The notes beneath the pieces are model-generated. The model saw only the letters and a list, made by a program, of their open reading frames with translations, did not search any database and was not told the origin of the DNA. From Bacteroidales bacterium (GTDB taxonomy: Bacteria > Bacteroidota > Bacteroidia > Bacteroidales > UBA932), in NCBI GenBank assembly GCA_017399865.1, contig JAFQAT010000053.1, positions 1-44,676 of the forward strand: a stretch of 44,676 nucleotides of DNA, read 5' to 3'. Both the position numbers and the translations under genes were made by a program. Positions 19,571 to 37,850 of the stretch are shown piece after piece. Each line of letters starts with the position of its first letter. Position 1 is the stretch's first letter.

Positions 19571-20683
19571 TTACTCGAATGATACAACTACTGCTCTGTC
19601 GAATGCAGCCTGACCGTTTGCAGCCTTGACAACAGCGTTCTTGACAACGATGTTCTCAGTTGCGATACCCTTCTGCTTGAGGAGGTTGATCATGTACTCT
19701 GCACGCTTCTTGCTGAGGTACTCGTTACGCTTAGCATAACCAGTGTTGCTGTCGGCAGTACCTGTAACGACTGTAGCCTTGCCGTTCTTCACGTTAGGAA
19801 GGATGTTCTCAAGGTAGAAGTCGAGGTGCTTAAGCTCCTTAGCGCTGAGCTCAGTCTTACCGATCTCGAAGAAGAATGATGCAGGAGCGATGTCCTTAAG
19901 ACCGTTAGCTGTTTCAGCAGCAACCTTAACGCTTTCAGTAAGCTGAACCTTTTCAGTCTCGAGAGCCTCAACCTTCTTCTCAGCCTTAACCTTGTCAGCA
20001 GCGAGAGCAGCGTTTGCAGCGGTAAGAGCGGCAGCAGCAGCTTCAGCAGCAGAAATCTTGTCAAGGTCAGCAGGGTTGTGGTATTCAGATGCACGAGTCC
20101 AGTCAGTTCTACCGAGGTTAACTGAAAGACCGAGAGCTGTGCTGATGAAGCCTGCAGGTCCGTGACGTCTGTAAACTGTTCCGCGAACATCGAGAGTAAG
20201 GTCAACTCTCTGGCTGAGGCGTACTACGTTGAGGAGACCGGCACCAGCAGCGATTTCTTTACCGTTGTCAATAAGGAGACCAGCGTGTGCATAAGGAACG
20301 AAATCCCAGATACGTGACTCCTTGTAACCGCCGATAGCGTTAGAGATGTTCCACATTGCGTCTCCGTGGAGGTATCCGTATTTGTTGTCCATACCGGTGA
20401 TACCGTTGAAGCCGACACGTGCACCAACGCATGGAGTCACCCACTTTCCTACGTTTAAGTCGATTGCGTAACCTGTCTCCCAGTCACCATCGTCATAGAA
20501 GAGGTTGAGACCTACTGGGTTTACGTTTACGAACCAGTTGTCCCAAAGACCGTTTGTAAGGTAAGGATGACGGACAGTGTTGCCCTCGGCATCCTTGTTC
20601 TCCTCTGCGTTAACAGCAGGAGCAGCAACCATTGAAACAACAGCGAGAGCCATAGCTCCCAAGAAGAATTTAACTGTTTTCAT
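19571..20683 (-). CDS. OmpA-family outer-membrane protein
   Basis: 370 residues with a signal peptide ending AVNA. An N-terminal eight-strand-type barrel (about 30-205) is followed by an Ala/Lys/Glu coiled coil (about 212-262, AAEAAAAALTAANAALAADKVKAEKK). The C-terminal OmpA peptidoglycan-binding domain (about 265-370) has FFEIGKTELSAKELKHLDFYLENI, GTADSNTGYAKRNEYLSKKRAEYMINLL and a final RAVVVSFE. It ties the outer membrane to the cell wall and is usually very abundant. Strongly biased codon use, a long AT-rich leader and a strong terminator fit high expression. The gene at 20886 is a tandem paralogue. Confidence 0.93.
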   Translation of the reverse strand: MKTVKFFLGAMALAVVSMVAAPAVNAEENKDAEGNTVRHPYLTNGLWDNWFVNVNPVGLNLFYDDGDWETGYAIDLNVGKWVTPCVGARVGFNGITGMDNKYGYLHGDAMWNISNAIGGYKESRIWDFVPYAHAGLLIDNGKEIAAGAGLLNVVRLSQRVDLTLDVRGTVYRRHGPAGFISTALGLSVNLGRTDWTRASEYHNPADLDKISAAEAAAAALTAANAALAADKVKAEKKVEALETEKVQLTESVKVAAETANGLKDIAPASFFFEIGKTELSAKELKHLDFYLENILPNVKNGKATVVTGTADSNTGYAKRNEYLSKKRAEYMINLLKQKGIATENIVVKNAVVKAANGQAAFDRAVVVSFE

Positions 20684-20761
20684 AACTACTGATAATTAAA
20701 CTTATTTTAGTAAAACTTAATTCCTGTTTTATGTGGCATGTACACTGCGCATACATAAATG

Positions 20762-20769
20762 CAAATATA
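20762..20769 (-). promoter_or_regulatory. -7 box of the OmpA-family gene promoter
   Basis: Minus-strand TATATTTG is an exact match, 78 bases before the start. The sequence upstream is very A/T-rich, as for a strong promoter. The leader would be about 70 bases. Confidence 0.6.
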
Positions 20770-20823
20770 GCACAACTTTTTTAATATTTTACTATTTTTC
20801 AGAAAAAATGCGCCTGATTATGC

Positions 20824-20856
20824 AAAAAAACAGGCATAAAACCCATTTATGCCTGT
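20824..20856 (-). terminator. Terminator of the second OmpA-family gene
   Basis: ACAGGCATAAA and TTTATGCCTGT form a perfect 11-bp stem around a 5-base loop, followed on the minus strand by a run of T (plus-strand A at 20824-20830). It lies 29 bases after the stop at 20886. Confidence 0.9.
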
Positions 20857-20885
20857 CATTTTATCCGATTGGTCCTTCAATTTGG

Positions 20886-22064
20886 TCATTTGAATGAAAT
20901 TATCACCGCCCTGTCCATCTTAGGATCCGCCTTCGCTTTCACAACTTCTGACTTGATAACCACCTTGTCTGCGTTGATTCCGTACTTCTCAGAAAGCAGT
21001 TTGACGATGTATTTTCCTCTCGCTTCACTCAGGTACTGATTTCTCTTTGCTGTGCCGGTGTTGCTGTCTGCAGAACCCATCACCACGATCTCCGCATTCG
21101 GATTGCCGTTTACCTTCTCGATTATGTTTCTTGCATAGAAATCAAGATGTTGCAGTTCGAGCTGGCCAAGGACTGTCTGGCCGATCGTGAAGTATACCGT
21201 GATCGGCTGCATCTCTTCATAAGACATCTCGAGAGCAGCCTCTTCTGTCTTCAGCTGCTTGACGTTCCTGCTGAGTTCGCTGTTCTTTTTCTGAAGCTTC
21301 ATGTTCTCCGCTTCAAGAGAAGCATTTGCGGCCTCGAGAGCTACGATTGCCGTTTCGAGGATTGCTGTCTTTTCTGCATTTGCAGCTTCGACAGCGCCGA
21401 GTATCGTCGATGTCCTGACGAATCCAGGCCATCCGAGGTTCACTGCCACTCCTGCGGTTACCGATGGAAGGACGGCAGGCCCTGATGTTCCGTGAATGTT
21501 TCCACTTACGACTGTCGCGCGCATGTCTATGATCACATCAATGCGCTCGTTGAGCTGGAGATTGTGCAGGATACCTGCACCTGTCGCGAATTCATTGTCG
21601 GCGAAATCGGAAGCATATGAACGGAAGAATCCGGCATGCAGATATGGTGTCACATCCCAGAATCGGCTTTCCTTGTAGCCGCTTAGGGCATTGGACATGT
21701 TCCACAGGAAGTCACCATGTATGTACATGTATCCGTATCTGCTGCTGTTGCCATCCTTGGTCGAGTCGAATTTCAAGCCCTGATATCCGGCCCTCATTCC
21801 GACGGAAGGAGTGAACCACTTGCCAAAATTCACATCCAGGCTTGGGCCGACCTTGACGTCATATCCGTTGTCAAGAAGCATGTTTATGCCGCCCCCGACT
21901 CCGACGAACCAGTTGTCACCGAAGCTGTTGGTCTCATATGGACCGCGCACGATGTTTCCGAATTCATCCCTGTTGCCGTTTTCCTGGGCATTGACACTGA
22001 CTTGCGCTGCCATCAGTACGGCAGCCAGAGCCGAGGCTCCATAAATAAAATAAAGACGTTTCAT
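20886..22064 (-). CDS. OmpA-family outer-membrane protein, tandem paralogue
   Basis: 392 residues from the ATG at 22064 (MKRLYFIYG...), which gives the best signal peptide; ATG 22070 is just upstream. Same architecture as the neighbour: signal peptide, barrel (GPYETNSFGDNWFVGVGGGINML ... NLGWPGF), coiled coil (about 225-280) and OmpA C-terminal domain (GQTVLGQLELQHLDFYARNIIEKV, MGSADSNTGTAKRNQYLSEARGKYIVKLL, RAVIISFK). The two share many positions, including the NWF barrel start and the C-terminal domain, so they arose by duplication and then diverged. Each has its own terminator and promoter. Confidence 0.92.
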   Translation of the reverse strand: MKRLYFIYGASALAAVLMAAQVSVNAQENGNRDEFGNIVRGPYETNSFGDNWFVGVGGGINMLLDNGYDVKVGPSLDVNFGKWFTPSVGMRAGYQGLKFDSTKDGNSSRYGYMYIHGDFLWNMSNALSGYKESRFWDVTPYLHAGFFRSYASDFADNEFATGAGILHNLQLNERIDVIIDMRATVVSGNIHGTSGPAVLPSVTAGVAVNLGWPGFVRTSTILGAVEAANAEKTAILETAIVALEAANASLEAENMKLQKKNSELSRNVKQLKTEEAALEMSYEEMQPITVYFTIGQTVLGQLELQHLDFYARNIIEKVNGNPNAEIVVMGSADSNTGTAKRNQYLSEARGKYIVKLLSEKYGINADKVVIKSEVVKAKADPKMDRAVIISFK

Positions 22065-22139
22065 AACCACTAATTTTAATGTGTATGAAACGTCCTATAC
22101 AAATTTGGTGTAAAAACCGTCTTTTCGCGAAAAAAGTTT

Positions 22140-26438: not shown

Positions 26439-26469
26439 TTTGATATTTTGTGATTTTTTACCAAATTTG
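26439..26469 (+). promoter_or_regulatory. Promoter of the surface lipoprotein operon
   Basis: -33 TTTG (26439-26442), a 19-base spacer and -7 CAAATTTG (26462-26469), which has one mismatch to TAnnTTTG. It predicts transcription from about 26476, 16 bases before the first ATG. The weaker -7 box fits a regulated promoter. Confidence 0.6.
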
Positions 26470-26491: not shown

Positions 26492-27907
26492 ATGAATATG
26501 AAATATCTGAAAGGTGCTGCCCTTGTGGGGCTGTTATGCGCCTTCCTGATGCCTCAATATGCTGATGCACAGACATATGTGAGGTATGTAGAACAATATG
26601 AACTGAAGTCGAAGACTGCACACGCCGACTCGGTCCTCCATTTTGTCCCCATGCCGCGCGGGGTCGCCGGACTGGACAATTACCCGAAGATCAATGTAGC
26701 AGCCCTCGAGCTTTCTTCTGCGCTTCAGAAGCCTGGAAGAGAGCTTCTTGAGGTATGGGTGTGCGGAAGCGCTTCCCCTGAAGGTGACTGGAACGAGAAT
26801 GTCCGCTTGAGCAGGGAGCGCACGGATGCAGCGGTCTCCTATATCAAGGAGATAATGGATATCCCTGACTATAAGATAAATAAGGAAAGCCTTAATGAAG
26901 ACTGGTATACTCTCTACCGACTTGTCGAGCAGAATGATGTGCCGCATCGTTACGATGTGCTTTTCATCATCAGGACCATGCAGGGAGAGGAGCGCAAGCA
27001 GGCGTTGAAGAAGCTTGATGGAGGAAAGGTGTGGGATTATATGCAGCGGGAACTGTTCCCTCAGATGAGGGGAGTGCGTTTTGCGATCTTCTGCAGCAAG
27101 GATCCTTACATCGAACCAGAAAAGACCTTGACAGATACGGTCTATGTCCGGGATACGGTGGTGATCATGAAGGAAGTGTTCTACATGAACCGGGAAGAGT
27201 CTCCTCAGACAGTTTCCCGCCCTGTGCCAAAGCCTGAACCTGAACCTCGTCAGGAACGTCAGCCGAAGGTCTGGGACACCCCTTGGCTGGCCTCGGTCAA
27301 GACCGATGTCGCTACGGATATCCTTGCACTGCCTCAGGCCGGAGTCGAGGTCCAGCTGTCCGACAGACTCTCCCTCGAATTCATGGGCTGGTACTCCGAA
27401 TGGCCGTATGTCAATTCATGCGACGATCATAAGGTATACGGTTTCAGACCGGAACTGAGGTATTGGATCAAGGGATCTATGCGTAGAGGCATATTCTTCG
27501 GCCTTCATGCGAACCTTGCATGGTATGCGATGATGGTGAACGGCAGGGATTTCTATCAGAATGCCTCGCTCTGTACCGATGCCTCCTGCGGCAGGAGACA
27601 TTTCTATCAGTACTCTTACCAGAACGAGGACGGCTTGACCATAACGAACAATTATCACGATACACCGGCCTGGAGTGCCGGAATGACGGTCGGCTATGCA
27701 CTTCCGCTGGACAGGCAGCAACGCTGGTCGGTGGAGTTCGTGGCTGGTGTGGGCTATGCCCATTATGAACAGAACTGGTATCAGAAGAGTTCTCCGTGGA
27801 CTCTGAAGACCATTGAAAATCCGCAGGTACGCGATTATTTCGGCATAACACGTGCAAGTGTAAACCTGGCATACCGCTTCTCCCTGCGCAGATATGAAAA
27901 ACAATAA
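26492..27907 (+). CDS. Outer-membrane protein: N-terminal OmpA-like domain + C-terminal DUF3575 barrel
   Basis: 471 residues; ATG 26492 or 26498. A signal peptide ends at YADAQ. Residues about 25-215 form an OmpA-like domain, recognised by VWVCGSASPEGDWNENVRLSRERTDAAVSYI (about 87-117). A Pro/Glu linker follows (about 245-262, PVPKPEPEPRQERQPK). The C-terminal part (about 268-471) is a DUF3575-type barrel (ATDILALPQAGVEVQLSDRLSLEFMGWYSEW... YRFSL). This is OmpA in reverse order. DUF3575 proteins are typical of Bacteroidota fimbrial and adhesin gene clusters. It heads the cluster with four lipoproteins and a second barrel, so it is likely the membrane anchor or assembly platform. Confidence 0.8.
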   Translation: MNMKYLKGAALVGLLCAFLMPQYADAQTYVRYVEQYELKSKTAHADSVLHFVPMPRGVAGLDNYPKINVAALELSSALQKPGRELLEVWVCGSASPEGDWNENVRLSRERTDAAVSYIKEIMDIPDYKINKESLNEDWYTLYRLVEQNDVPHRYDVLFIIRTMQGEERKQALKKLDGGKVWDYMQRELFPQMRGVRFAIFCSKDPYIEPEKTLTDTVYVRDTVVIMKEVFYMNREESPQTVSRPVPKPEPEPRQERQPKVWDTPWLASVKTDVATDILALPQAGVEVQLSDRLSLEFMGWYSEWPYVNSCDDHKVYGFRPELRYWIKGSMRRGIFFGLHANLAWYAMMVNGRDFYQNASLCTDASCGRRHFYQYSYQNEDGLTITNNYHDTPAWSAGMTVGYALPLDRQQRWSVEFVAGVGYAHYEQNWYQKSSPWTLKTIENPQVRDYFGITRASVNLAYRFSLRRYEKQ

Positions 27908-27937
27908 ATGCACATATTAAATTCATTAACCAAACAA

Positions 27938-30166
27938 ATGAGACGTTCAGGATTTCTTATTCCTTGCCTCGCGATCTTGTTGACTGCATGTAACGAGGGT
28001 GTCATTACCGGTCCTTCGGAGTCAGACTCCTCAGAGACCGGAATGGTGACATTCACCCTGTCGGCTGACATGCGCAATGACCTCGTGCAGGTAAAGTCTT
28101 CTGCGGAAGATATTTCCGTGGATGAGTTCTGGGTTGAGATCTTCAATTCATCCCAGAAGAGAATCTTTTGCGAAAAGTACGCTGACGCAAAGGATACGAC
28201 TCTCTTCATCAATTCAGGCGAATATACGCTGCTTGCAACGTATGGCACTGAAAATGGGGTCGGCTTTGACAAGCCTTATTACAAGGCTGAGAAAAACTTC
28301 ACAGTAGGTCCTCAGGAAGTAACCGACCTGAGCCTGACCGCAACCCTCGCCAATGTCAAGGTGGCGGTGAAATTCGATGAGAATCTCGGCAACAAGCTCT
28401 CGTACGACGAGTATTGGGCCGTGGTAAGGAACAACGGCAGGAAGCTTCGCTTCAATCCAAGCGAGAAGCGTGCAGGATACATTCCGGCCGGCGATCTGGA
28501 ATTTGTCCTGGTCGTGAAGATAAACGGAGAATACAAGCAGTATGTCCATCCCGCAGCAACATATGCGCCGAATGATTTCGTGACCTTCGACGTTAAGGCA
28601 GGGCTTATCGACGGCAGCATCGCCATCAAGATACTGGTGGATGATACGGTAGAAGTCGTGGAGGTCGAAGCTGTAGAAGTGCCTGTGGAAAGCATCCTTC
28701 CGATGAAGGAACCGATGATATTGTCGCAGGGATTCGACGGCGGGAACATGATCACATATACGGAAGGCAAGGCGGAACGTCTTGATGAGGTGTGGATCAG
28801 CGCAGCTGCGGAAGGTATCATGTCCAGCGCTGTCCTTGACATAGACTGTCCTTCATTGGGTCTTCCGGCATCTACGGATCTGATGACTGCCGATGCTTCA
28901 ACCGTCGCAGCGTTTGAGGAAAAGGGCATCTGGTGGAAATTCAACGATGACAGGACATCGCTGGCCATCAGCATGACGGATGCTTATAATGACCATATCT
29001 CGAAGATCGGCTATGCCGGTTATGATGCGGTCGCTCAGAAGTGCCTTCCTGTAGCGCAGATAAGCCTTTCGATTGAAACGGAGAAGGGATATGTGACGTC
29101 TGCAGAGGAAAGTTTCGCAGTCGTAGCCGAGCCTTATGCGGCGACAGGTACATTCTCATGGAATGAATATGATGTATGGGCGTGGAAGATCGTTAATCCA
29201 AAACTCACTCTAGGGGAAGGAAGCTACAACAAGACCAAGATACAGTACAGTACTGACGGCTCGACATGGATGGATTTCCAGGATGTCACTTCGGCAGCCC
29301 ATTCTATGGGAACAGTTGAGGGACTTACTCCGGGAACGACTTACCATCTCCGTGCGATGTATGACGGCTGGATCGAAGTCGCAGCTCCTGTAAGCTTTAC
29401 CACCGAAGCCGCCCAGCAGGTCGGCAATGCCGGATTTGAGGACTGGAGAGGCTCTGAGACCGAGCATGTGTTTGTAGCTAAACTTGTTTCGACAAAGAAT
29501 ATTGAGCGTCCTTTTTACGAACCATGGAAAGAGAATGAAACTGATAAGTGGTGGGCAGTAAACAGTAAGGTGTCAATGCCGTCGTCAGGTACGCAGACTG
29601 GCTTTAATGCTACGTATAATATAAGATGTTTTCCTGTAGTTGCATATTCGACAGCTTCCAATACAGGTTCGAAAAGTGCTTCTCTTCAGACCATAGCGAT
29701 CAGTGATTGGCTTACCACCTCGAATCTTACCGATGCAATGTATTATGTCGGTGAACTTTTCGTAGGTCAGGCAAATGATGATGGATCGCATAAGACAGAC
29801 GGTCATGCATTTGCATCAAGACCATCTGCTTTGAAATTCTACTATCGATATGCTTCAAACAATGGAGAGAAATTTCCTGTAACGATATATATCAAAGGAG
29901 AAAAAGGCAATAAATTGGCAGAGGAATATGTGGAAATCCCGGCACCTCAGTCATCAGCCACGTGGTATAGCTATGAACTGCCTCTTCAGTATGATGTCAC
30001 GGATGAAAAGGCTTCACTTATATATATATCATTCAGAACAGCAAATACGACTTCGCCTTCAGTTGCGAAAGATATTGATAATGCAGAGCATGAGATAGCT
30101 GGAATAAAACAGAAGGCTCATTTTGGCAGTGAGCTTCGGATTGATGATGTGGAACTCGTTTACTAA
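27938..30166 (+). CDS. Surface lipoprotein: DUF4493 + middle domain + Fn3-like + PCMD
   Basis: 742 residues from the ATG at 27938, chosen because the lipoprotein signal peptide (MRRSGFLIPCLAILLTAC) starts there; ATG 27908 adds ten residues. After lipidated Cys18 comes NEGVITG. Residues about 28-225 are a DUF4493 domain, a fimbrillin-like beta fold (FTLSADMRNDLVQVKSSAEDISVDEFWVEIFN). A middle domain (about 250-410), an Fn3-like repeat (about 418-488, GLTPGTTYHLRAMYDG) and a C-terminal PCMD-like domain (about 490-742, ending RIDDVELVY) follow. The PCMD part of this copy is the most divergent in the cluster. It is exported and probably surface-exposed. Ligand unknown. Confidence 0.75.
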   Translation: MRRSGFLIPCLAILLTACNEGVITGPSESDSSETGMVTFTLSADMRNDLVQVKSSAEDISVDEFWVEIFNSSQKRIFCEKYADAKDTTLFINSGEYTLLATYGTENGVGFDKPYYKAEKNFTVGPQEVTDLSLTATLANVKVAVKFDENLGNKLSYDEYWAVVRNNGRKLRFNPSEKRAGYIPAGDLEFVLVVKINGEYKQYVHPAATYAPNDFVTFDVKAGLIDGSIAIKILVDDTVEVVEVEAVEVPVESILPMKEPMILSQGFDGGNMITYTEGKAERLDEVWISAAAEGIMSSAVLDIDCPSLGLPASTDLMTADASTVAAFEEKGIWWKFNDDRTSLAISMTDAYNDHISKIGYAGYDAVAQKCLPVAQISLSIETEKGYVTSAEESFAVVAEPYAATGTFSWNEYDVWAWKIVNPKLTLGEGSYNKTKIQYSTDGSTWMDFQDVTSAAHSMGTVEGLTPGTTYHLRAMYDGWIEVAAPVSFTTEAAQQVGNAGFEDWRGSETEHVFVAKLVSTKNIERPFYEPWKENETDKWWAVNSKVSMPSSGTQTGFNATYNIRCFPVVAYSTASNTGSKSASLQTIAISDWLTTSNLTDAMYYVGELFVGQANDDGSHKTDGHAFASRPSALKFYYRYASNNGEKFPVTIYIKGEKGNKLAEEYVEIPAPQSSATWYSYELPLQYDVTDEKASLIYISFRTANTTSPSVAKDIDNAEHEIAGIKQKAHFGSELRIDDVELVY

Positions 30167-30174
30167 CATATAAA

Positions 30175-31527
30175 ATGAAAAAGATATTTTACCCGATACT
30201 GGCAGCAGCTGCAATACTTACAGCCTGCAATGAAGAAGTGATCACAGACGGCACCGGATCGCTTTCATTCAAGATAGGAGAGGTGGCCGACCAATATTAT
30301 ACAAAGGCTGATGCAGTCGACATAAACGAGTTCTTTGTCACGATCTCCGACTGGAACGGAAATCCGGTTACCTGCGACGGAGTGACCTACAGCAATGTTC
30401 CGTACAAGAATCTTCCTACGGAAATCAGCGGCCTGCCTTCAGGTCCGTATACAGTGGCAGTATCTTCTCACGAAGAGACTCCGGCTGCAGCATTCGACAC
30501 TCCAGTGTTCGGAGGATCGACCACTTTCAACGTGAAGACGGGAGCGACTACTCCTGTGACAGTGAAGTGCTCGGTCCAGAACGTGAAGGTGACTGTAAAT
30601 CCTACAGCGAAATTCCTCAGCGAACTCACCACTTACACGATTACAGTGAAGAACGAGCACGGAGGAACCATCCACTGGACCAACAACGCAGAACTTACAG
30701 GAACGAATGTCTCTGCTGACCTCACTCTTCCTGCCCACTTCTCGGTTTCTGCCCTTGACGTGACCGTCACAGGCTATCGCAAGATAAGCGGTGCAGAAGT
30801 CAATCTCGAGGAGAATGCAGACTGGAACGGAAAGATCACGGATGTGGCTGCCGCTGACCACCATATCATCAATATCGATGCGCAGACAACCGGCGGAATC
30901 GGCGGTGCGACGGAGGGTGACAACGGCATCACGCTGATTGTTGACGGTGCCGGTCTCAATGAAGTGAACACCGAACTTGAGATTCCGGGCTACGAGGATG
31001 TAGGAGTCGACGGACCGGACAGAGGTGAGAACGAGGATGGCGGGGACGAAGGTGCAGATGATGTAAAGATTACTATGGACTGGCCAGGTCATGAGGCGGA
31101 TGCAGACGGCGTGTTTGAACCTGTGGATATTGAAGACGGTATGTCAGTGGAACTTACAGTAGGAGCTGAAGCCGGTATCGCCGGATTTGTCATCAGACTG
31201 GAATCAGACACCCCTGCCTTTATGGCTCTTTGCAGTCAGATGACCTCGAATGTTCTTACTGCCGATCAGGCGAAGGAGCAGGGCTATGTCATGATAGATC
31301 TGATCGGAGACCCTACAGCTGTGGAACTTATGGCCGGAGTCGGCCTCAAGACGGGAAACAATCTGAAGAACCAGACATCGGTTCCGTTCAGCTTGTCGAC
31401 TCTGGTTCCTATGATTCCGTCGGCAGGTCAGGCCGGAAAGGATACAGATCATACGTTTATACTGACTGTCACAGATAATAATGGTGACCAGAAGTCCTGG
31501 ACGCTCACTTTCCATGTTCCTGCTTAA
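30175..31527 (+). CDS. Surface lipoprotein: DUF4493 + middle domain, no PCMD
   Basis: 450 residues. Lipobox LTAC with Cys18, then NEEVITDG. The DUF4493 domain (about 22-245) starts GSLSFKIGEVADQYYTKADAVDINEFFVTISDWNG. Residues about 277-296 are an Asp/Glu/Gly-rich stretch (GVDGPDRGENEDGGDEGADD). The middle domain (about 300-450) matches that of its neighbours (LTADQAKEQGYVMIDLIG) and the protein ends there. It therefore lacks the Fn3 and PCMD modules of the flanking lipoproteins and may be a stalk or structural subunit. It starts 8 bases after the previous stop. Confidence 0.78.
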   Translation: MKKIFYPILAAAAILTACNEEVITDGTGSLSFKIGEVADQYYTKADAVDINEFFVTISDWNGNPVTCDGVTYSNVPYKNLPTEISGLPSGPYTVAVSSHEETPAAAFDTPVFGGSTTFNVKTGATTPVTVKCSVQNVKVTVNPTAKFLSELTTYTITVKNEHGGTIHWTNNAELTGTNVSADLTLPAHFSVSALDVTVTGYRKISGAEVNLEENADWNGKITDVAAADHHIINIDAQTTGGIGGATEGDNGITLIVDGAGLNEVNTELEIPGYEDVGVDGPDRGENEDGGDEGADDVKITMDWPGHEADADGVFEPVDIEDGMSVELTVGAEAGIAGFVIRLESDTPAFMALCSQMTSNVLTADQAKEQGYVMIDLIGDPTAVELMAGVGLKTGNNLKNQTSVPFSLSTLVPMIPSAGQAGKDTDHTFILTVTDNNGDQKSWTLTFHVPA

Positions 31528-31549
31528 TAATCCCTAACAGTTTCAAGTT

Positions 31550-34024
31550 ATGTTGAAGAATATGTTGACAAGACTGACTGTCGCTCTTGCAGTCATCTCG
31601 CTGGCAGCCTGCAACGAAGCGGTGCTGGTAGGTGACGGATATGGCAGCATCGGTGTGAGTCTGGATTGGGATACTGCCCTCCAGACCAAGGCTGATGGCG
31701 CCGTGGAGCTTGGGGATGACACTCAGGTGACGATATCTGTCCTTGATGAGGACGGTGATGTCGTGGTGGAACCGACCACCTATGCCTATGCGGCCTTGAA
31801 GGAGGCTGAATTCGAGGTTCCGGTCGGTGTCTATACCGTGACGGCTTCTACAGGCAGCAATCACCAGGCTGCCTGGGGATCTCCTTTCTATTATGGAGAG
31901 GATGAGGTTACGGTCTATGCGGAAAGGAGCAATGCGGCAGAGATAGTCTGCACTCTTGCGAATGTGAAGGTTACCGTAGCCTTTGATGAAGGATTCGCAG
32001 ATTATTGTTCATATTATGGCGTTACAGTGGATAACGGAGCAGGAGAGGGCCTGACGTTCAGCAACGAGAACGGCAAGCTCGATGAAGAAGGCTATTTCGC
32101 TGTTACTGGTACACTTAAGTGGAAGCTGATCCTGGAGAACAATGACGGCAAGTCATACATCGCATCAGGTAATATCACCAATGTGAAGGCAAAGCAGCAT
32201 TATCCTCTGTCGTTCACTCTTTCTGAGGCTGTAGAGGATGAGAAAGGCTCATCAGTCTTCAAGATCACTCTAGACGACTCCATTACCGAGAAGGAGTTCG
32301 ACGCTGTGCTTGATTTCAGCCCTTCGGGAAGCTATGACGTGACCACTTCAGGCTTCGATTACGTGGCTGGAAACATCGCTGTTCCGATGGGCGACGAGAA
32401 TGTCAAGACGATTACGACTTCGATGACAAACGGAATCGCAAGCGCTCCTGTATGCGTGGACGGCAAGTGGTATGAACTTGTGAATGCTGACCAGACTACT
32501 ATAGACAGGCTTGCTGCTATCGGAGTCGGTGCTTCTGTGGTGAATTATGGCGCAACCTCGTTTACCATCGATGTGACCGACTACCTTGCCGGTATCGGAG
32601 AGTTCGGTGACTATCCTGTAACTGTTGCAGCGTACGATGTCAAGGGACTCAAGGTGGAGACAGTATTCGCATTCGAGATCATCTCGAATGTCGATGCATC
32701 AGCAGTTTCTGCGGTTCCATCGGCAACTTCTGCAGTGCTTACGGCTAAATGGTACTCAAGCACAAGACCGGAGGGACTTGGAATCGAATATAAGACCGTT
32801 TCCGGTACGGAGTGGACTCAGGTAGATGCAGCTGCAATCACTTACGATGAGACTCAGAAGAGATTCTCGGCAAATGTGACAGGTCTTGCTGCAGGTACTC
32901 AGTATTCGTTCCGCCCTTATTCTGTAAATCATAGGGATGAGATCAGCACGATGGATTTCTATACGAACTTTACAGCGCCTGTTTCTGTCGAGCCATGGGC
33001 TAAGTTTGCTGTAGTTACCGGAAAGTGGCTTACTGACACCAGACCGGATGGACTCTCATTCAAGTACAGGGTTTATGGCACTACAGGCTGGGTGGATATC
33101 GACTCGTCTAAATCCCGTATGACAGTCGATGACGCTTCCAAGACGTTCACAGCTGATATCACAGGACTTGATCCTGACTGTCCATATGAGTTCAGAGCGA
33201 TATCATCTGTCGATGCCGATTCTAATCAGGAGATTGTAGAGTTCAGAACCGAGAAAGCCGGAACTATATACAATATGAACTTTGATGAATGGTCTGAGAC
33301 CAAGTCAAATAACAAGACTGTCTATTATCCGTTTGCTGAAGGTGCTCAACACGTATGGGATTCAGCTAATGAGGCGGCTGTCACCTTGTCACAGTCATCT
33401 ACAACCCCTGTCAGCGGCAGTGATGCATACAAGGGTAAGGCTGTGAGGATGGAGAGCAAGTATATGCTCATAGCATTTGCCGCGGGTAATCTTTTTACAG
33501 GTGATTTCGTGACGATCGATGGTGTCGGTGCCGAATTGGATTGGGGTGTACAGTTTACATCAAGACCTGTCGCCTTGAAGGGTTACTATAAATATATACC
33601 GGCGAAAATAGACAAGTTGAATGAAGACAAACTCAAGGCAGGAGGATTGAATCCGAGTGATATCAAGGGCACACTTGATAAGGCGCAGATCCAGGCCTTC
33701 ACGGCAAACTGGGACAAGCAGTTCCGCATCAATACTACAGCCGGGCAGTTTGTGGACGTCAGTGAGAATAATAGAGACAATCTCGTGGCTTTCGGACGTC
33801 TTGAAAGTTCTGACACTCACGAATCCTACCATGAGTTCGTAATTCCGCTTACTTATAGGTCAAAAGAGGCTCCGACGTATGTGGTTATCTCTGCGGCAGC
33901 ATCATATCTCGGCGATTACTTTACGGGAGGAGTCGGTTCGGTATTGTATGTGGATGAATTCGAATTCATCTATGATATCGCCGAACTGACCGATGAAGAA
34001 GCAGCTTCAGTTAACTACAGATAA
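31550..34024 (+). CDS. Large surface lipoprotein: DUF4493 + middle domain + two Fn3-like repeats + PCMD
   Basis: 824 residues; ATG 31562 is an alternative start. The signal peptide ends LAAC, then NEAVLVGDG. DUF4493 spans about 28-240 (GSIGVSLDWDTALQTKADGAVELGDDTQVTISVLD), the middle domain about 260-380. Two tandem Fn3-like repeats follow (about 383-475 and 476-570): KWYSSTRPEGLGIEYK and KWLTDTRPDGLSFKYR mark the same strand in each. The PCMD domain (about 570-824) has FDEWSETKSNN, AAGNLFTGDF, GVGAELDWGVQFTSRPVALKGYYKY and YLGDYFTGGVGSVLYVDEFEF. PCMD was named for a suspected carbohydrate role; binding is not shown here. Largest member of the cluster. Confidence 0.8.
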   Translation: MLKNMLTRLTVALAVISLAACNEAVLVGDGYGSIGVSLDWDTALQTKADGAVELGDDTQVTISVLDEDGDVVVEPTTYAYAALKEAEFEVPVGVYTVTASTGSNHQAAWGSPFYYGEDEVTVYAERSNAAEIVCTLANVKVTVAFDEGFADYCSYYGVTVDNGAGEGLTFSNENGKLDEEGYFAVTGTLKWKLILENNDGKSYIASGNITNVKAKQHYPLSFTLSEAVEDEKGSSVFKITLDDSITEKEFDAVLDFSPSGSYDVTTSGFDYVAGNIAVPMGDENVKTITTSMTNGIASAPVCVDGKWYELVNADQTTIDRLAAIGVGASVVNYGATSFTIDVTDYLAGIGEFGDYPVTVAAYDVKGLKVETVFAFEIISNVDASAVSAVPSATSAVLTAKWYSSTRPEGLGIEYKTVSGTEWTQVDAAAITYDETQKRFSANVTGLAAGTQYSFRPYSVNHRDEISTMDFYTNFTAPVSVEPWAKFAVVTGKWLTDTRPDGLSFKYRVYGTTGWVDIDSSKSRMTVDDASKTFTADITGLDPDCPYEFRAISSVDADSNQEIVEFRTEKAGTIYNMNFDEWSETKSNNKTVYYPFAEGAQHVWDSANEAAVTLSQSSTTPVSGSDAYKGKAVRMESKYMLIAFAAGNLFTGDFVTIDGVGAELDWGVQFTSRPVALKGYYKYIPAKIDKLNEDKLKAGGLNPSDIKGTLDKAQIQAFTANWDKQFRINTTAGQFVDVSENNRDNLVAFGRLESSDTHESYHEFVIPLTYRSKEAPTYVVISAAASYLGDYFTGGVGSVLYVDEFEFIYDIAELTDEEAASVNYR

Positions 34025-34027
34025 TCC

Positions 34028-34960
34028 ATGAGAAAGGCTATATTGACGATATTGCTGGTCGTTTCCGACGCTCTTCTGCTCAGTGCAGGCTCCCTTTCAG
34101 GGAGGGCCTGCACTGAGCAGACGTGCCGGGATACCATCCGTATCGCAGATACGGTGTGGATGGCGCCTCCGGCGGCTCGTCAGGCCGTCAGGCCGGCCGA
34201 GCCGAAGCCGGAAGCCGTCTATCCCGCAGATCCGGTGCTGGATGATACCTTCGACAGGGGAATAGGAAAGGCTACGGCTCTCTTCGTTCCGAAAGGTACG
34301 CTTGCGTTCGGGCTGACCGCCTCCTACAGCTCCTATGATTTCGGCAATGCTGCAGATGATGTCGGCTATAAGATGCTATTCTCGCTGCTCAACGGTCTGA
34401 ACGCTTCCATGACGTCGTTCGGCGTCGCTCCGCATGTTTCCTATTTCTTTGCGGACAACACTTCGGTGGGACTCCGCTTTGATTACGGCAAGTCGGACAT
34501 GGGAATCGGGAATGCTAACCTGTCTCTTGGGGATGCGATGTCGTTCGGGGTGCAGGACATGTATTATCTTCAGCAGTCTTATTCCGGATCGCTTACCCTC
34601 CGGCATTATATGTCGATAGCGGACAGCAGACGTTTCGCGATCTTCGTCGAGGGCCGTGGTACGCTGGGATATGCCCAGTCCAAGACCTACCGTCTGGAAG
34701 GGAATGACAAGTTCGGAACATATCAGGACATAGACAAGGCTTCGCTCAGCCTTGTCCCGGGCATCGTCTGCTTCGTAATGGACAATGCGGCTTTCGAAGT
34801 CTCTGTCGGAGTTCTCGGCTTTGATTATCAGAAGGTGAGGCAGGTCACCAATCAGGTGGAGGTGAGCGAGATGAAGAGCAGCGGCGCCAATTTCAAGGTG
34901 AATCTCCTGTCGATCAATTTCGGCATGTCGTTTTATATATACCCTAAAAGAAACAGGTAA
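34028..34960 (+). CDS. Outer-membrane beta-barrel protein of the surface operon
   Basis: 310 residues. The signal peptide reads MRKAILTILLVVSDALLLSAG. A Pro/Ala-rich stretch follows (about 44-75), then a barrel (about 90-310) with strands such as GTLAFGLTASYSSYDFG, NTSVGLRFDYGKSDMGIG and LLSINFGMSFYIYP. It may export or anchor the lipoproteins encoded around it. Bases 34075-34121 of the coding region form a 16-bp perfect stem with an inner 5-bp hairpin, encoding the last part of the signal peptide and the first mature residues. The gene sits 3 bases after the previous stop and 3 bases before the next ATG. Confidence 0.75.
   Translation: MRKAILTILLVVSDALLLSAGSLSGRACTEQTCRDTIRIADTVWMAPPAARQAVRPAEPKPEAVYPADPVLDDTFDRGIGKATALFVPKGTLAFGLTASYSSYDFGNAADDVGYKMLFSLLNGLNASMTSFGVAPHVSYFFADNTSVGLRFDYGKSDMGIGNANLSLGDAMSFGVQDMYYLQQSYSGSLTLRHYMSIADSRRFAIFVEGRGTLGYAQSKTYRLEGNDKFGTYQDIDKASLSLVPGIVCFVMDNAAFEVSVGVLGFDYQKVRQVTNQVEVSEMKSSGANFKVNLLSINFGMSFYIYPKRNR
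34075..34121 (+). repeat. Long hairpin inside the barrel gene's 5' coding region
   Basis: TCTGCTCAGTGCAGGC (34075-34090) is exactly complementary to GCCTGCACTGAGCAGA (34106-34121). Between them TCCCT and AGGGA form a further 5-bp stem with a TTC loop. It begins 47 bases after the start codon. No T-run follows, so it is not a standard terminator, but it could slow translation or stabilise mRNA. Confidence 0.85.
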
Positions 34961-34963
34961 GTG

Positions 34964-36592
34964 ATGAGGAAGACGTTGACATTATTGGCTTTTGCTGTCA
35001 TGCTTTTCGGCGTGACATCCTGCTTGTTTGAAAACGACCTTTCATATCCGAAGACGGAGGCAGACATAACTTCATTCGAAGTCGAAGGCCAGCTTTCTGT
35101 GAAGATCGATGCGGAGAACCGGCATGTGGCAGTCGAGCTGGCTGAATCTGTCGACATTTCCCGTGTAAAAGTCACAGGCATAGCCGTAAGCGAAAAGGCG
35201 GAGATTGTCGGGGGAGTTCCTGCATATCTCGACCTCACCGGACCGGTCACCATAGTTGTCAAGACCTACTCGGAGGAAACGTGGACTGTTTCGGCCACGC
35301 AACCGGTCGTACGCTATATCGATGTGGAGGGGCAGGTCGGTGAGGCGGAGTTTGATGTGCCGAACCGTTCCGCTATCGTGTATGTTTCTGGAAGCCAGTC
35401 CCTTAAATCCGTGGTGTTCAAGGCTATGAAGCTTGAGAAGGAAGGGTCCGTAGTAGTCTCTACTTCCGGAACCGTTGTCGAAGGAACCCTTACCCATGAA
35501 GAGACTGAGGAATGTGTGTTCCCTATGACCCTGGAGTGTGTCATGCTGAGGAAATTCACCGTTGAGACGGATGGTGAGACGGTCGACTGGATAGTACGTG
35601 TCCTGAACAAGGATGTTGAGGTGGAAGTCACTTCAGTCAATGCATGGGCGACCCATGCCTACGTAACAGGGCTGTTTGACGGGACAGGCGAACCGTACAT
35701 CGAATACCGGAGGGATGGTGATGATTCATGGACAAAAGTTATTGGTGCTGTCGTTACGGGAACAGGAATCTCAGCTGACTTTACAGGACTCCAGCCGGGG
35801 GCAGCGTATGAAGTACGCGTCGTGAGCGGCGAGAATGCAAGCGCGCCGTTTGCATTCGAGACCGAAGACGCAGCACAGGTGCCGAATATGGATTTCGACG
35901 ATTGGTATTCATCGGATCCTTCTGCAGCCAAGGCTGTATGGTATCCGTATTCTTCGTCTGCAGACCAGGCATGGGATTCGGCAAATCCTGGAGCAGCCAC
36001 GTTCATAGGATCGTCGACTACTCCGGAAGAATCATTCGTCGTCTCAGGAAAGGCAGCGCGACTTGAAAGCAAATATGCCGTCATAGCTTTCGCTGCCGGA
36101 AACATCTATACCGGAAAGTTCGACAAGATCGCCGGTGTGGGTGCCGAACTGGACTGGGGCTATCCTTTCACATCAAGGCCTTCTGCCCTTAAAGGCTGGT
36201 ACAGCTACTCTCCGAAGCCTATAGACAGGGCTGATGCCTCGAAACTGTCTACCGGGGGACTCTCTGCCGGAGAACTGCTCGGAAAGCAGGACAAGTGTCA
36301 GATACTGGTCATTCTGGCTGACTGGGACTCGCAGTTCCATGTCAACACGACAAAAGGCCAGTTCGTGGATGTCGAGAACGACGGGCATATCATAGCATAT
36401 GGAGTGCTTGAGACCGATATGTCTACTGACGGCGAGTACAAGGAATTCACCATCGATCTGGAGTACCGTACGAAGAACCGCAGGCCGAATTACGTGGTGA
36501 TATCAGCATGTGCTTCGTACCTGGGTGATTATTTTACCGGAGGTGTCGGAAGTACATTGTATGTCGATGAATTCGAGTTCGTTTACGAATAG
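34964..36592 (+). CDS. Surface lipoprotein: Ig-like repeats + Fn3-like + PCMD
   Basis: 542 residues from the ATG at 34964 (a GTG at 34961 is in frame). Lipobox VTSC, then LFENDLSYP. The N-terminal half has two beta-sandwich repeats (about 28-115 and 116-205) resembling the DUF5018-type domains that precede glycan-binding modules (ITSFEVEGQLSVKIDAENRHVAVEL..., then YIDVEGQVGEAEFDVPNRSAIVYV). An Fn3-like repeat (about 210-300, GLQPGAAYEVRV) and PCMD (about 303-542, FDDWYSSD, AAGNIYTGKF, GAELDWGYPFTSRPSALKGWYSY, TGGVGSTLYVDEFEFVYE) follow. It shares the PCMD closely with the 31550 gene but not the DUF4493 part. Last gene of the operon; it converges with the metal exporter. Confidence 0.8.
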   Translation: MRKTLTLLAFAVMLFGVTSCLFENDLSYPKTEADITSFEVEGQLSVKIDAENRHVAVELAESVDISRVKVTGIAVSEKAEIVGGVPAYLDLTGPVTIVVKTYSEETWTVSATQPVVRYIDVEGQVGEAEFDVPNRSAIVYVSGSQSLKSVVFKAMKLEKEGSVVVSTSGTVVEGTLTHEETEECVFPMTLECVMLRKFTVETDGETVDWIVRVLNKDVEVEVTSVNAWATHAYVTGLFDGTGEPYIEYRRDGDDSWTKVIGAVVTGTGISADFTGLQPGAAYEVRVVSGENASAPFAFETEDAAQVPNMDFDDWYSSDPSAAKAVWYPYSSSADQAWDSANPGAATFIGSSTTPEESFVVSGKAARLESKYAVIAFAAGNIYTGKFDKIAGVGAELDWGYPFTSRPSALKGWYSYSPKPIDRADASKLSTGGLSAGELLGKQDKCQILVILADWDSQFHVNTTKGQFVDVENDGHIIAYGVLETDMSTDGEYKEFTIDLEYRTKNRRPNYVVISACASYLGDYFTGGVGSTLYVDEFEFVYE

Positions 36593-36602
36593 AATGCATG
36601 AT

Positions 36603-37850
36603 TTACATCAGCAGCATGGCTCCGAAGCCTGCTGCCAATGCGACAACACAGTTGATGAGCTTCGCCCAGGCGAAGCTCTTTCTGCTTTCTGCAAGCAGAG
36701 GAATGGACGCGTGGCCGTCCTGCGAGATCGAGCTTGCCAGAAGGACAGGGAACGGCACTACGCCGGTCGCAAAGAGCGTCACGAATATCATGTGAGGGCC
36801 CGATTCAGGGATTATTCCGATCAATGTGGCCAGAAGGATCATCAAGGCTGTATTGTCGCTGATCCAATGGTCGATTTCTACATATTGAAGGGCAAAGCCA
36901 AGAACAAGAAGCACTCCTAATGTCCATGCGAATATGGTGGGCAGATGTCTCTTTACTATATGTTCCCAAAGATGGCCTTCAACGAAATGGTCTGAAGCGA
37001 AAAGCAGGACGAAAAGAACTATGACGCTCAGACCGGCAAAGATGACGTTCATCCAGTCCTCGCTCAGAAGGTCAATGCCATGGCTTTGGATATCTTCTTC
37101 ATGATGGTGGTGTCCATGTTCGCAGGCCTCTGTATGTACATGGCCCTCATGACCATGGTCATGTCCTGCATGCGCAGAATGGTCGTGGCCGAGACGGCCT
37201 GTGGCCAATGCGGAAATGAATACCGCCAGTCCTGCAAACATCAGCATCCTCTTCCATCCGTAGTGGCGTTTCGGTGCATTGCAGTCATCCGTGCCGTGCG
37301 GATAAGGGGAACATTCCCCTTTGCTCCTGTTACCCGTTCCGCATGGTACGGATGACGGTGAACAGTAATGCTCGATATGTTCATCATGTACGACATACCC
37401 GTCGTGGCAGTCAGTGTCTGCACCGCACTCCGAATGGTCGTGCTTGTCACAGCTGCGGGAATGCATCCTGTCATGGACGAAATCCACTGCGACTCCGACC
37501 AGAATCGCCAGAACAAACAGCACAGCAAACAGAATCAGGGCCTGCTCCGGAATCATTGCCAGCATGACAAATGCCTCGTCGCCTGATGATGCGATCATCA
37601 TCGCCACGAGGGCGCCGAAACTGAACATCCTGTGGGTATACAGCGATACTGTAGCAAAACCTCCCATGCATCCGGGAATCGATCCCAGCAGGGAAGCTAT
37701 CACCACCTGACCGAACTTGGTCTTCTTCAATCCTTTGAACACCATGCCCCTTGACTCGATGTTAAGCGACTCGATCATCATCATCATCACCACCACAAGT
37801 CCGGTAATCAGCACAGCATTCCTCAATGCCTCAACAACTACATGCCACAT
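36603..37850 (-). CDS. Putative 10-TM heavy-metal (manganese) exporter, His-rich
   Basis: 415 residues. Two homologous membrane halves each carry a conserved turn: LLGSIPGCMGGF (about 54-65) and LIGIIPESGPHMIF (about 338-351). This is the pattern of the putative 10-TM metal exporter family (ArsP_2, also called putative manganese transporter). The cytosolic or periplasmic loops are rich in His, Cys and Asp: about 126-175 (HDRMHSRSCDKHDHSECG) and about 222-255 (HDHSAHAGHDHGHEGHVHTEACEHG). These probably bind metal. The exact metal is not known; manganese or another divalent ion is likely. The gene lies 6 bases after the DUF1573 gene. Confidence 0.78.
   Translation of the reverse strand: MWHVVVEALRNAVLITGLVVVMMMMIESLNIESRGMVFKGLKKTKFGQVVIASLLGSIPGCMGGFATVSLYTHRMFSFGALVAMMIASSGDEAFVMLAMIPEQALILFAVLFVLAILVGVAVDFVHDRMHSRSCDKHDHSECGADTDCHDGYVVHDEHIEHYCSPSSVPCGTGNRSKGECSPYPHGTDDCNAPKRHYGWKRMLMFAGLAVFISALATGRLGHDHSAHAGHDHGHEGHVHTEACEHGHHHHEEDIQSHGIDLLSEDWMNVIFAGLSVIVLFVLLFASDHFVEGHLWEHIVKRHLPTIFAWTLGVLLVLGFALQYVEIDHWISDNTALMILLATLIGIIPESGPHMIFVTLFATGVVPFPVLLASSISQDGHASIPLLAESRKSFAWAKLINCVVALAAGFGAMLLM

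Follow-up and report, generated by a model that had tools for sequence, protein, structure and literature searches.

We analyzed six open reading frames (ORFs) on the forward strand (26492–36592) of a 44,676-nucleotide stretch of DNA from a Bacteroidales bacterium (UBA932; assembly GCA_017399865.1, contig JAFQAT010000053.1), referred to here as the window. The genes encode, in order, the DUF3575 protein OMP1, the lipoproteins LP2, LP3, and LP4, the presumed outer-membrane protein OMP5, and the lipoprotein LP6. Comparison of their sequences points to a real and widespread surface-type gene module that is related in design to the type V pili, its identity as a pilus being only proposed. OMP5 and LP6 are the smallest unit seen and the defined core. 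We tentatively favor a pilus-like, proteolytically matured surface complex that has these two proteins as its core and presents ligand-binding PCMD domains.

In the favored complex, OMP5 would form a barrel in the outer membrane and either hold LP6 or pass it on, and the DUF4493 lipoproteins LP2, LP3, and LP4 would be transported to the surface. They would be clipped after a conserved Lys/Arg by a trypsin-like protease, in the fashion of type V pilins, which would release them from the lipid and the first strand, and the clipped proteins would be linked to one another or to the base via strand complementation. LP2 and LP4 would add two further PCMD domains that bind a glycan or another ligand without cutting it, and the DUF3575 protein, where present, may act as a helper common to fimbrial loci.

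Conservation of the gene set

The six ORFs were confirmed as real genes on one strand at the positions that the original prediction had given them, with intergenic gaps of 0, 8, 22, 3, and 0 bases instead of the 3 to 30 bases it had described. Searching genome contigs with LP4 returned 12 loci, all from records titled Bacteroidales or Candidatus Cryptobacteroides, and the order LP2-LP3-LP4-OMP5-LP6 was kept in 11 of them, LP2 being cut by a contig end in two. An OMP5 profile matched 23 of 61 genomes, namely 22 of the 37 from the window's genus (its own genome included) and 1 of the 24 outside it. Among the 37 loci of this first search, which were found via LP4 or OMP5 so that those genes are present by selection, the run LP3-LP4-OMP5(-OMP5)-LP6 occurred in 27, the window included, on stretches of up to 20 kb. 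The other 10 comprised loci cut by contig ends (L062, L067, and L069), short OMP5-LP6 units (L064, L073, and L078), and single genes (L017, L075, L077, and L079); L012 and L013 begin with an incomplete LP2. L056, which duplicates the record of L006, is left out of this count, as are the short loci L001–L005 and L018–L054, and the loci of the window's own genome (L080–L083) stand outside it. In 16 of the 37 loci, parE lies upstream on the other strand, adjoining the module or its fimbrillin-like gene, and the place of the module is therefore old in the window's family.

Among 393 genomes from the order, a broader OMP5 profile matched 70 at E 0.001, many of them weakly, and strong matches (E <1e-20) were obtained in 38 genomes from 17 families, with at most six candidates scored per genome. 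From the 38 genomes, 30 order-wide loci were taken (left out were the own genome, G056, G226, G314, G364, G369, G375, and G410), and the run LP3-LP4-OMP5-LP6 was present in 22 of them. A gene for an LP6-type PCMD lipoprotein directly follows OMP5 in 29 of the 30, L174 having OMP5 alone. LP2 is placed after LP6 in L152, L156, and L158; L165, L166, and L170 hold only OMP5-OMP5-LP6, and L171–L173 only OMP5 and a short LP6. Taking both sets of loci together, the full run was seen in 12 families. The family counts (12 and 17) and the number of strong matches (38) were tallied from the result tables, and negative gaps in the locus tables are partly an artifact of choosing the first possible start codon. 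Co-conservation across Bacteroidales, on which the original prediction had staked its reading beforehand, was therefore observed. That DUF4493, DUF3575, and PCMD genes are also found apart (e.g. in L017 and L080) would suit a chance neighborhood of unrelated surface genes with a common promoter region, but this explanation is extremely improbable, since it is contradicted by the differing genomic surroundings and by a core order that is kept in 12 families and is therefore more than chance.

OMP5 (34028–34960, + strand) belongs to a family without a Pfam name, as no Pfam family was matched over the cut-off (best BBP2, E 0.0068), and no relative was found in the PDB. It is frequently encoded as a tandem pair of unequal copies (e.g. 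L066:9067-10723, L165:8335-9944, and L155:9575-11166), and the two copies may serve as separate subunits of a single platform. A relationship of OMP5 to DUF3575 was considered and set aside, the profile comparison giving 3.5% in a weak test whose positive control was also negative. OMP1 is optional: called at >100 bits with a profile of our own making (Pfam was run on L058 and L177), it heads 6 of 67 loci (the window, L006, L007, L011, L058, and L177), and among loci lacking a DUF3575 gene many have a second OMP5 instead and some have neither. Two barrels as a constant feature of the operon are thus not supported.

OMP1 (26492–27907, + strand) consists of a signal peptide, read by eye, an OmpA-like stretch, and DUF3575 at residues 268–463 (91.8 bits; Pfam cut-off 21.1). 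The OmpA-like stretch (residues 73–130) lies under the cut-off both in the window (E 0.055) and in the L058 relative (E 2.6e-5). It would suit a periplasm-facing complex for envelope structure or maintenance, linked to peptidoglycan through OMP1, as would the stable site beside parE. We consider such a complex very unlikely, because OMP1 is present in those six loci only, strong OMP5 matches are limited to 38 of the 393 genomes (at most six candidates scored in each), and the Fn3, Ig, and PCMD modules together with the ligand pocket suit the surface better.

Domain architecture and the PCMD pocket

Pfam and profile comparison, and in the case of LP6 Pfam, a structure-profile match, and reading, gave the domain orders of the four lipoproteins, all on the + strand. 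LP2 (27908–30166) is DUF4493-M-Fn3-divergent PCMD (DUF4493, 113.5 bits; PCMD, 30.3 bits, barely past the cut-off of 28), LP3 (30175–31527) is DUF4493-acidic linker-M (DUF4493, 128.4 bits), LP4 (31550–34024) is DUF4493-M-Fn3-Fn3-PCMD (DUF4493, 145.8 bits; PCMD, 140.3 bits), and LP6 (34961–36592) is Ig-like-Ig-like-Fn3-PCMD (PCMD, 149.3 bits). DUF4493 is present in LP2, LP3, and LP4 and PCMD in LP2, LP4, and LP6, which bears out the four differing module combinations noticed at the outset. Domain M is common to LP2, LP3, and LP4 (95–98% profile probability) and has no Pfam match over the cut-off there. The Fn3-like stretches score under the Fn3 Pfam cut-off, and none of the six proteins matched NCBIfam over the cut-off. 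When 14 domain alignments were compared all-against-all (91 pairs), 14 pairs exceeded 15%, every one of them joining like with like.

Lipoboxes, likewise part of the original prediction, were read by eye in LP2, LP3, LP4, and LP6 at Cys28, Cys18, Cys21, and Cys21, respectively. With rules of our own making in place of a trained predictor, a lipobox was present in 83 of 93 DUF4493 ORFs, and a laxer rule found one in all 67 DUF4493 proteins of other families, picking the wrong Cys in a few. A conserved Asn-Asp stands a few residues past the lipid Cys in LP6. The N-terminal region of LP6 weakly matches the DUF4960 structure 8aa2/8a9y (profile E ~1e-6, no single stretch being significant alone), and this match and reading suggest the Ig labels. 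The 8aa2/8a9y protein is a member of a levan-utilization complex. In L007 (13321–18873) and L011 (13641–18996), a second run of four small and one large (672–700 residues) DUF4493 lipoproteins directly follows LP6, an arrangement that looks like an addition of pilin-like subunits.

The PCMD domain (PF13201) is represented structurally by the BT2081 family (3hbz, 4jrl, 4het, and 3s30), and the BT2081 report interprets the deep pocket of this protein (3hbz) as carbohydrate-binding (PMC2954218). We compared the pocket residues of LP6 and LP4 in the numbering of that report (3hbz chain number + 19, hand-checked on eight residues). Similar to BT2081, both proteins have a C-terminal PCMD and keep much of the pocket. 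In the LP6 family (n = 27), position 206 carries Phe in 24 sequences and position 202 carries Phe or Tyr in all 27; Asp338 is retained in 25, and Phe340 and the Ca-site Asp351 in 26 each. In LP4 (n = 12) Phe206, Asp338, Phe340, and Asp351 are kept in every sequence. Unlike BT2081, the LP6 family has Asp259 and Glu336 in 0 of 27 and Tyr at position 261 in 4 of 27, LP4 has Asp259 and Tyr261 in 0 of 12, and PCMD is carried here on longer Fn3/DUF4493 proteins within a fixed operon. Of the candidate catalytic pair of BT2081, Asp338 is largely retained and Asp259 is gone from LP6 and LP4, which makes hydrolase activity such as has been considered for BT2081 unlikely. The PCMD domains of LP6 and LP4 are read as probable ligand binders, not enzymes, and the partly conserved pocket supports the ligand-binding role suggested for them earlier.

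Putative clip site and fimbrial context

To the lipid Cys as first residue we aligned 83 DUF4493 proteins, 10 of the 93 ORFs having been dropped for failing the lipobox rule. The column right after the first strand, as read from the sequence, is Lys or Arg in 77 of 83 and the next column is Ala or Ser in 78 of 83, with variable surroundings; the next most basic column among the first 95 reaches 48%. The distance from Cys to Lys/Arg in the 77 proteins is 24–42, with a median of 29. In the window, this column holds Lys63 of LP2 (28094–28096), Lys44 of LP3 (30304–30306), and Lys47 of LP4 (31688–31690), all on the + strand, as putative clip sites. When the other families were aligned afresh, leaving out L168, L176, and L177 of the window's own family, the column was basic in 63 of 66 (41 Arg and 22 Lys; 66 of the 67 sequences have a letter there), and the next most basic column reached 60%. 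The motif x-[KR]-[AS] after the lipid Cys occurred in 56 of 67 DUF4493 proteins, compared with 39% of 1072 control stretches taken from those same sequences and with 10 of 26 LP6 proteins. A conserved Arg is found in 22 of 23 LP6 proteins, yet 97–128 residues from the Cys. Because Lys and Arg interchange at one place amid variable sequence, the pattern is that expected of a trypsin-like site. By analogy with pilins, we infer that the conserved Lys/Arg of the DUF4493 proteins may be cut in maturation. Processing of Mfa1 at Arg49, and a cut in FimA proposed to expose the groove for strand exchange, are described in PMC5954841 (for type V pili in general, see PMC11316588).

The fimbrial context that had been suggested for these genes was recovered in two ways. 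In the same genome, all three further DUF3575 loci are fimbrial: the C42 locus also encodes DUF3868 (28.0 bits; cut-off 27), Fimbrillin_C, and Mfa2, the C23 locus also encodes a P_gingi_FimA protein, and on C48 an OmpA-DUF3575 protein is followed by Mfa_like_1 proteins, of which three exceed the cut-off. In addition, ten loci (L065, L068, L070, L071, L072, L074, L076, L168, L169, and L178) share a homologous lipoprotein of ~600–650 residues upstream of the module. This protein scores over the Mfa_like_1 (PF13149) cut-off in L068 (27.9 bits), L076 (41.7 bits), and L072 (37.6 bits; G002:C384), slightly under it in L071 (25.3 bits), and has no Pfam match in the six others, and an alignment of nine of the ten matched the fimbrillin profile at 96.8%. 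Judged by these matches, one module variant is regularly accompanied by a fimbrillin-like protein. The operon of the window itself contains no fimbrillin-family subunit among its six genes by Pfam.

The module thus resembles the type V pili (FimA/Mfa1, Porphyromonas and relatives) in having lipoprotein subunits, several per operon, in the basic residue of the DUF4493 proteins where pilins are clipped (a likeness in residue presence only), in the PF13149 fimbrillin-like genes of related loci, and in the DUF3575 genes of same-genome fimbrial loci. However, it differs from them in that the operon has PCMD and Fn3 modules, no sequence relation between DUF4493 and fimbrillins was found in a weak test, and no Mfa2/FimB anchor scored over the cut-off; moreover, it has a constant OMP5 partner, which type V loci are not known to have. 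Of the original prediction that the genes build one surface complex, the co-conserved lipoprotein/OMP5 set, the fimbrial context, and the PCMD pocket are in favor, two barrels as a constant feature are not supported, and the anchor barrel stays conjectural.

Several observations weigh against a pilus-like, proteolytically matured complex. The DUF4493 profile matched fimbrillins at 1.4%, Mfa2 at 2.6%, and the upstream lipoprotein at 0.3%. This negative comparison weighs little because the pilin-type families Mfa_like_1 and Mfa2, used as positive control, miss each other too (1.1%); the same method does join Mfa_like_1 with the upstream lipoprotein and the three DUF4493 sets with one another. 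DUF4493 had no FimA-type match in the PDB at E up to 10, and the tail after the domain is at most 24 residues long in 25 of 28 single-domain DUF4493 proteins, which therefore have no obvious appended donor strand. No Mfa2/FimB-type anchor was found over the cut-off in the operon, the best PF08842 match being LP3 (E 0.12), and the 78%-complete genome yielded matches to neither gingipain (C25) nor clostripain (C11), the C25 profile matching no control genome either. Amphipathic strands number 13 in OMP5 versus 9.5 in shuffles (sd 1.5; the maximum of 200 shuffles was also 13) and 10 in OMP1 versus 9.2, counts with which both proteins stay presumed barrels. Most LP6 and all LP4 proteins lack Tyr261, a residue described as strictly conserved near BT2081. 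Finally, on C52 of the window's own genome (L080:4295-9947), a DUF4493-DUF6359 protein is encoded just before a TonB-receptor (SusC-like) and SusD-like proteins, and DUF4493 is therefore also used in a nutrient-uptake setting.

This DUF4493 gene adjoining SusC/SusD would also fit a static glycan-capture complex, in which intact, lipid-anchored surface lipoproteins, like SusD-like or surface glycan-binding proteins, hold or pass a ligand with no polymer and no clipping. The largely kept PCMD pocket, the weak match of the LP6 N terminus to the DUF4960 protein, and four similar proteins whose differing module numbers suit a capture array agree with it, and the Ig-like stalks and sugar-pocket fold are shared with SusCD and surface glycan-binding lipoproteins. 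However, in contrast to SusCD systems (polysaccharide utilization loci), neither the six genes nor the ten flanking genes scanned include a TonB-dependent receptor (SusC), SusD, or glycoside hydrolase gene, or a SusC/SusD pair, and the conserved Lys/Arg and the fimbrillin neighbors would be left unexplained. We regard static capture as possible, though somewhat unlikely.

Clearly unlikely, in our estimate, is that the favored pilus-like complex amounts to a new class of Bacteroidales appendage, with clipped DUF4493 subunits, strand complementation, and a dedicated OMP5 platform, often a tandem pair, with a fixed PCMD lipoprotein partner. Should OMP5 serve as an assembly platform, it would bear on how pilin-like lipoproteins assemble without a known usher. 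Porphyromonas fimbriae apparently have no usher, according to PMC5954841, and the OMP5 platform would, if true, supply the usher-like part. Surface lipoproteins are the means by which gut Bacteroidales contact host and food glycans, and for many surface operons of these bacteria no function is known. The recurring unit offers a core of OMP5 and LP6, the Pfam-unnamed domain M, a Lys/Arg clip prediction, and a binding-pocket prediction, all of them testable. In the open-licence literature searched, we found no account of this gene set; DUF4493, the PCMD domain, PF13201, PF14900, and PF12099 were unmentioned, and DUF3575 appeared only in expression tables. As far as these searches show, the gene module is undescribed.

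Promoter and flanking features

A promoter-like TTTG-N19-CAAATTTG (26439–26469, + strand), with one mismatch to the Bacteroidota consensus, ends 22 bases ahead of the start codon of OMP1, and no second spacer-19 match lies inside the operon. Matches of this type are not rare across the window (4 found versus 2.15 expected). Upstream of the first gene, a match (≤1 mismatch, spacers 18–22) lies within 200 bases in 10 of the 13 loci checked, the window included, versus 1.3 expected from shuffled letters, and the promoter-to-gene distance is identical in the relatives L006 and L058. A predicted Bacteroidota-type promoter is thus kept ahead of the operon in relatives. A sigma-70 scan gave 9 sites versus 12.0 in shuffles, with no excess, and no RNA elements were found in the window at gathering scores. 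A phase-variable promoter was considered, but only a 10-base inverted repeat (two start-codon contexts) and one 79% repeat were found, which we judged to be chance.

Downstream of the operon, a terminator-like hairpin of 9 pairs (36657–36678, + strand) lies within the 3' end of a convergent gene; hairpins are overall at chance level (10 found versus 7.6 expected, sd 2.6). The convergent gene (36603–37850) encodes a protein containing His-rich stretches, putatively a 10TM heavy-metal exporter (ArsP_2). Elsewhere in the window, two adjoining minus-strand genes (19571–22070) each encode an OmpA-family domain at the C terminus, scoring 31.8 bits in one and, marginally below the cut-off of 27.2, 27.1 bits in the other.

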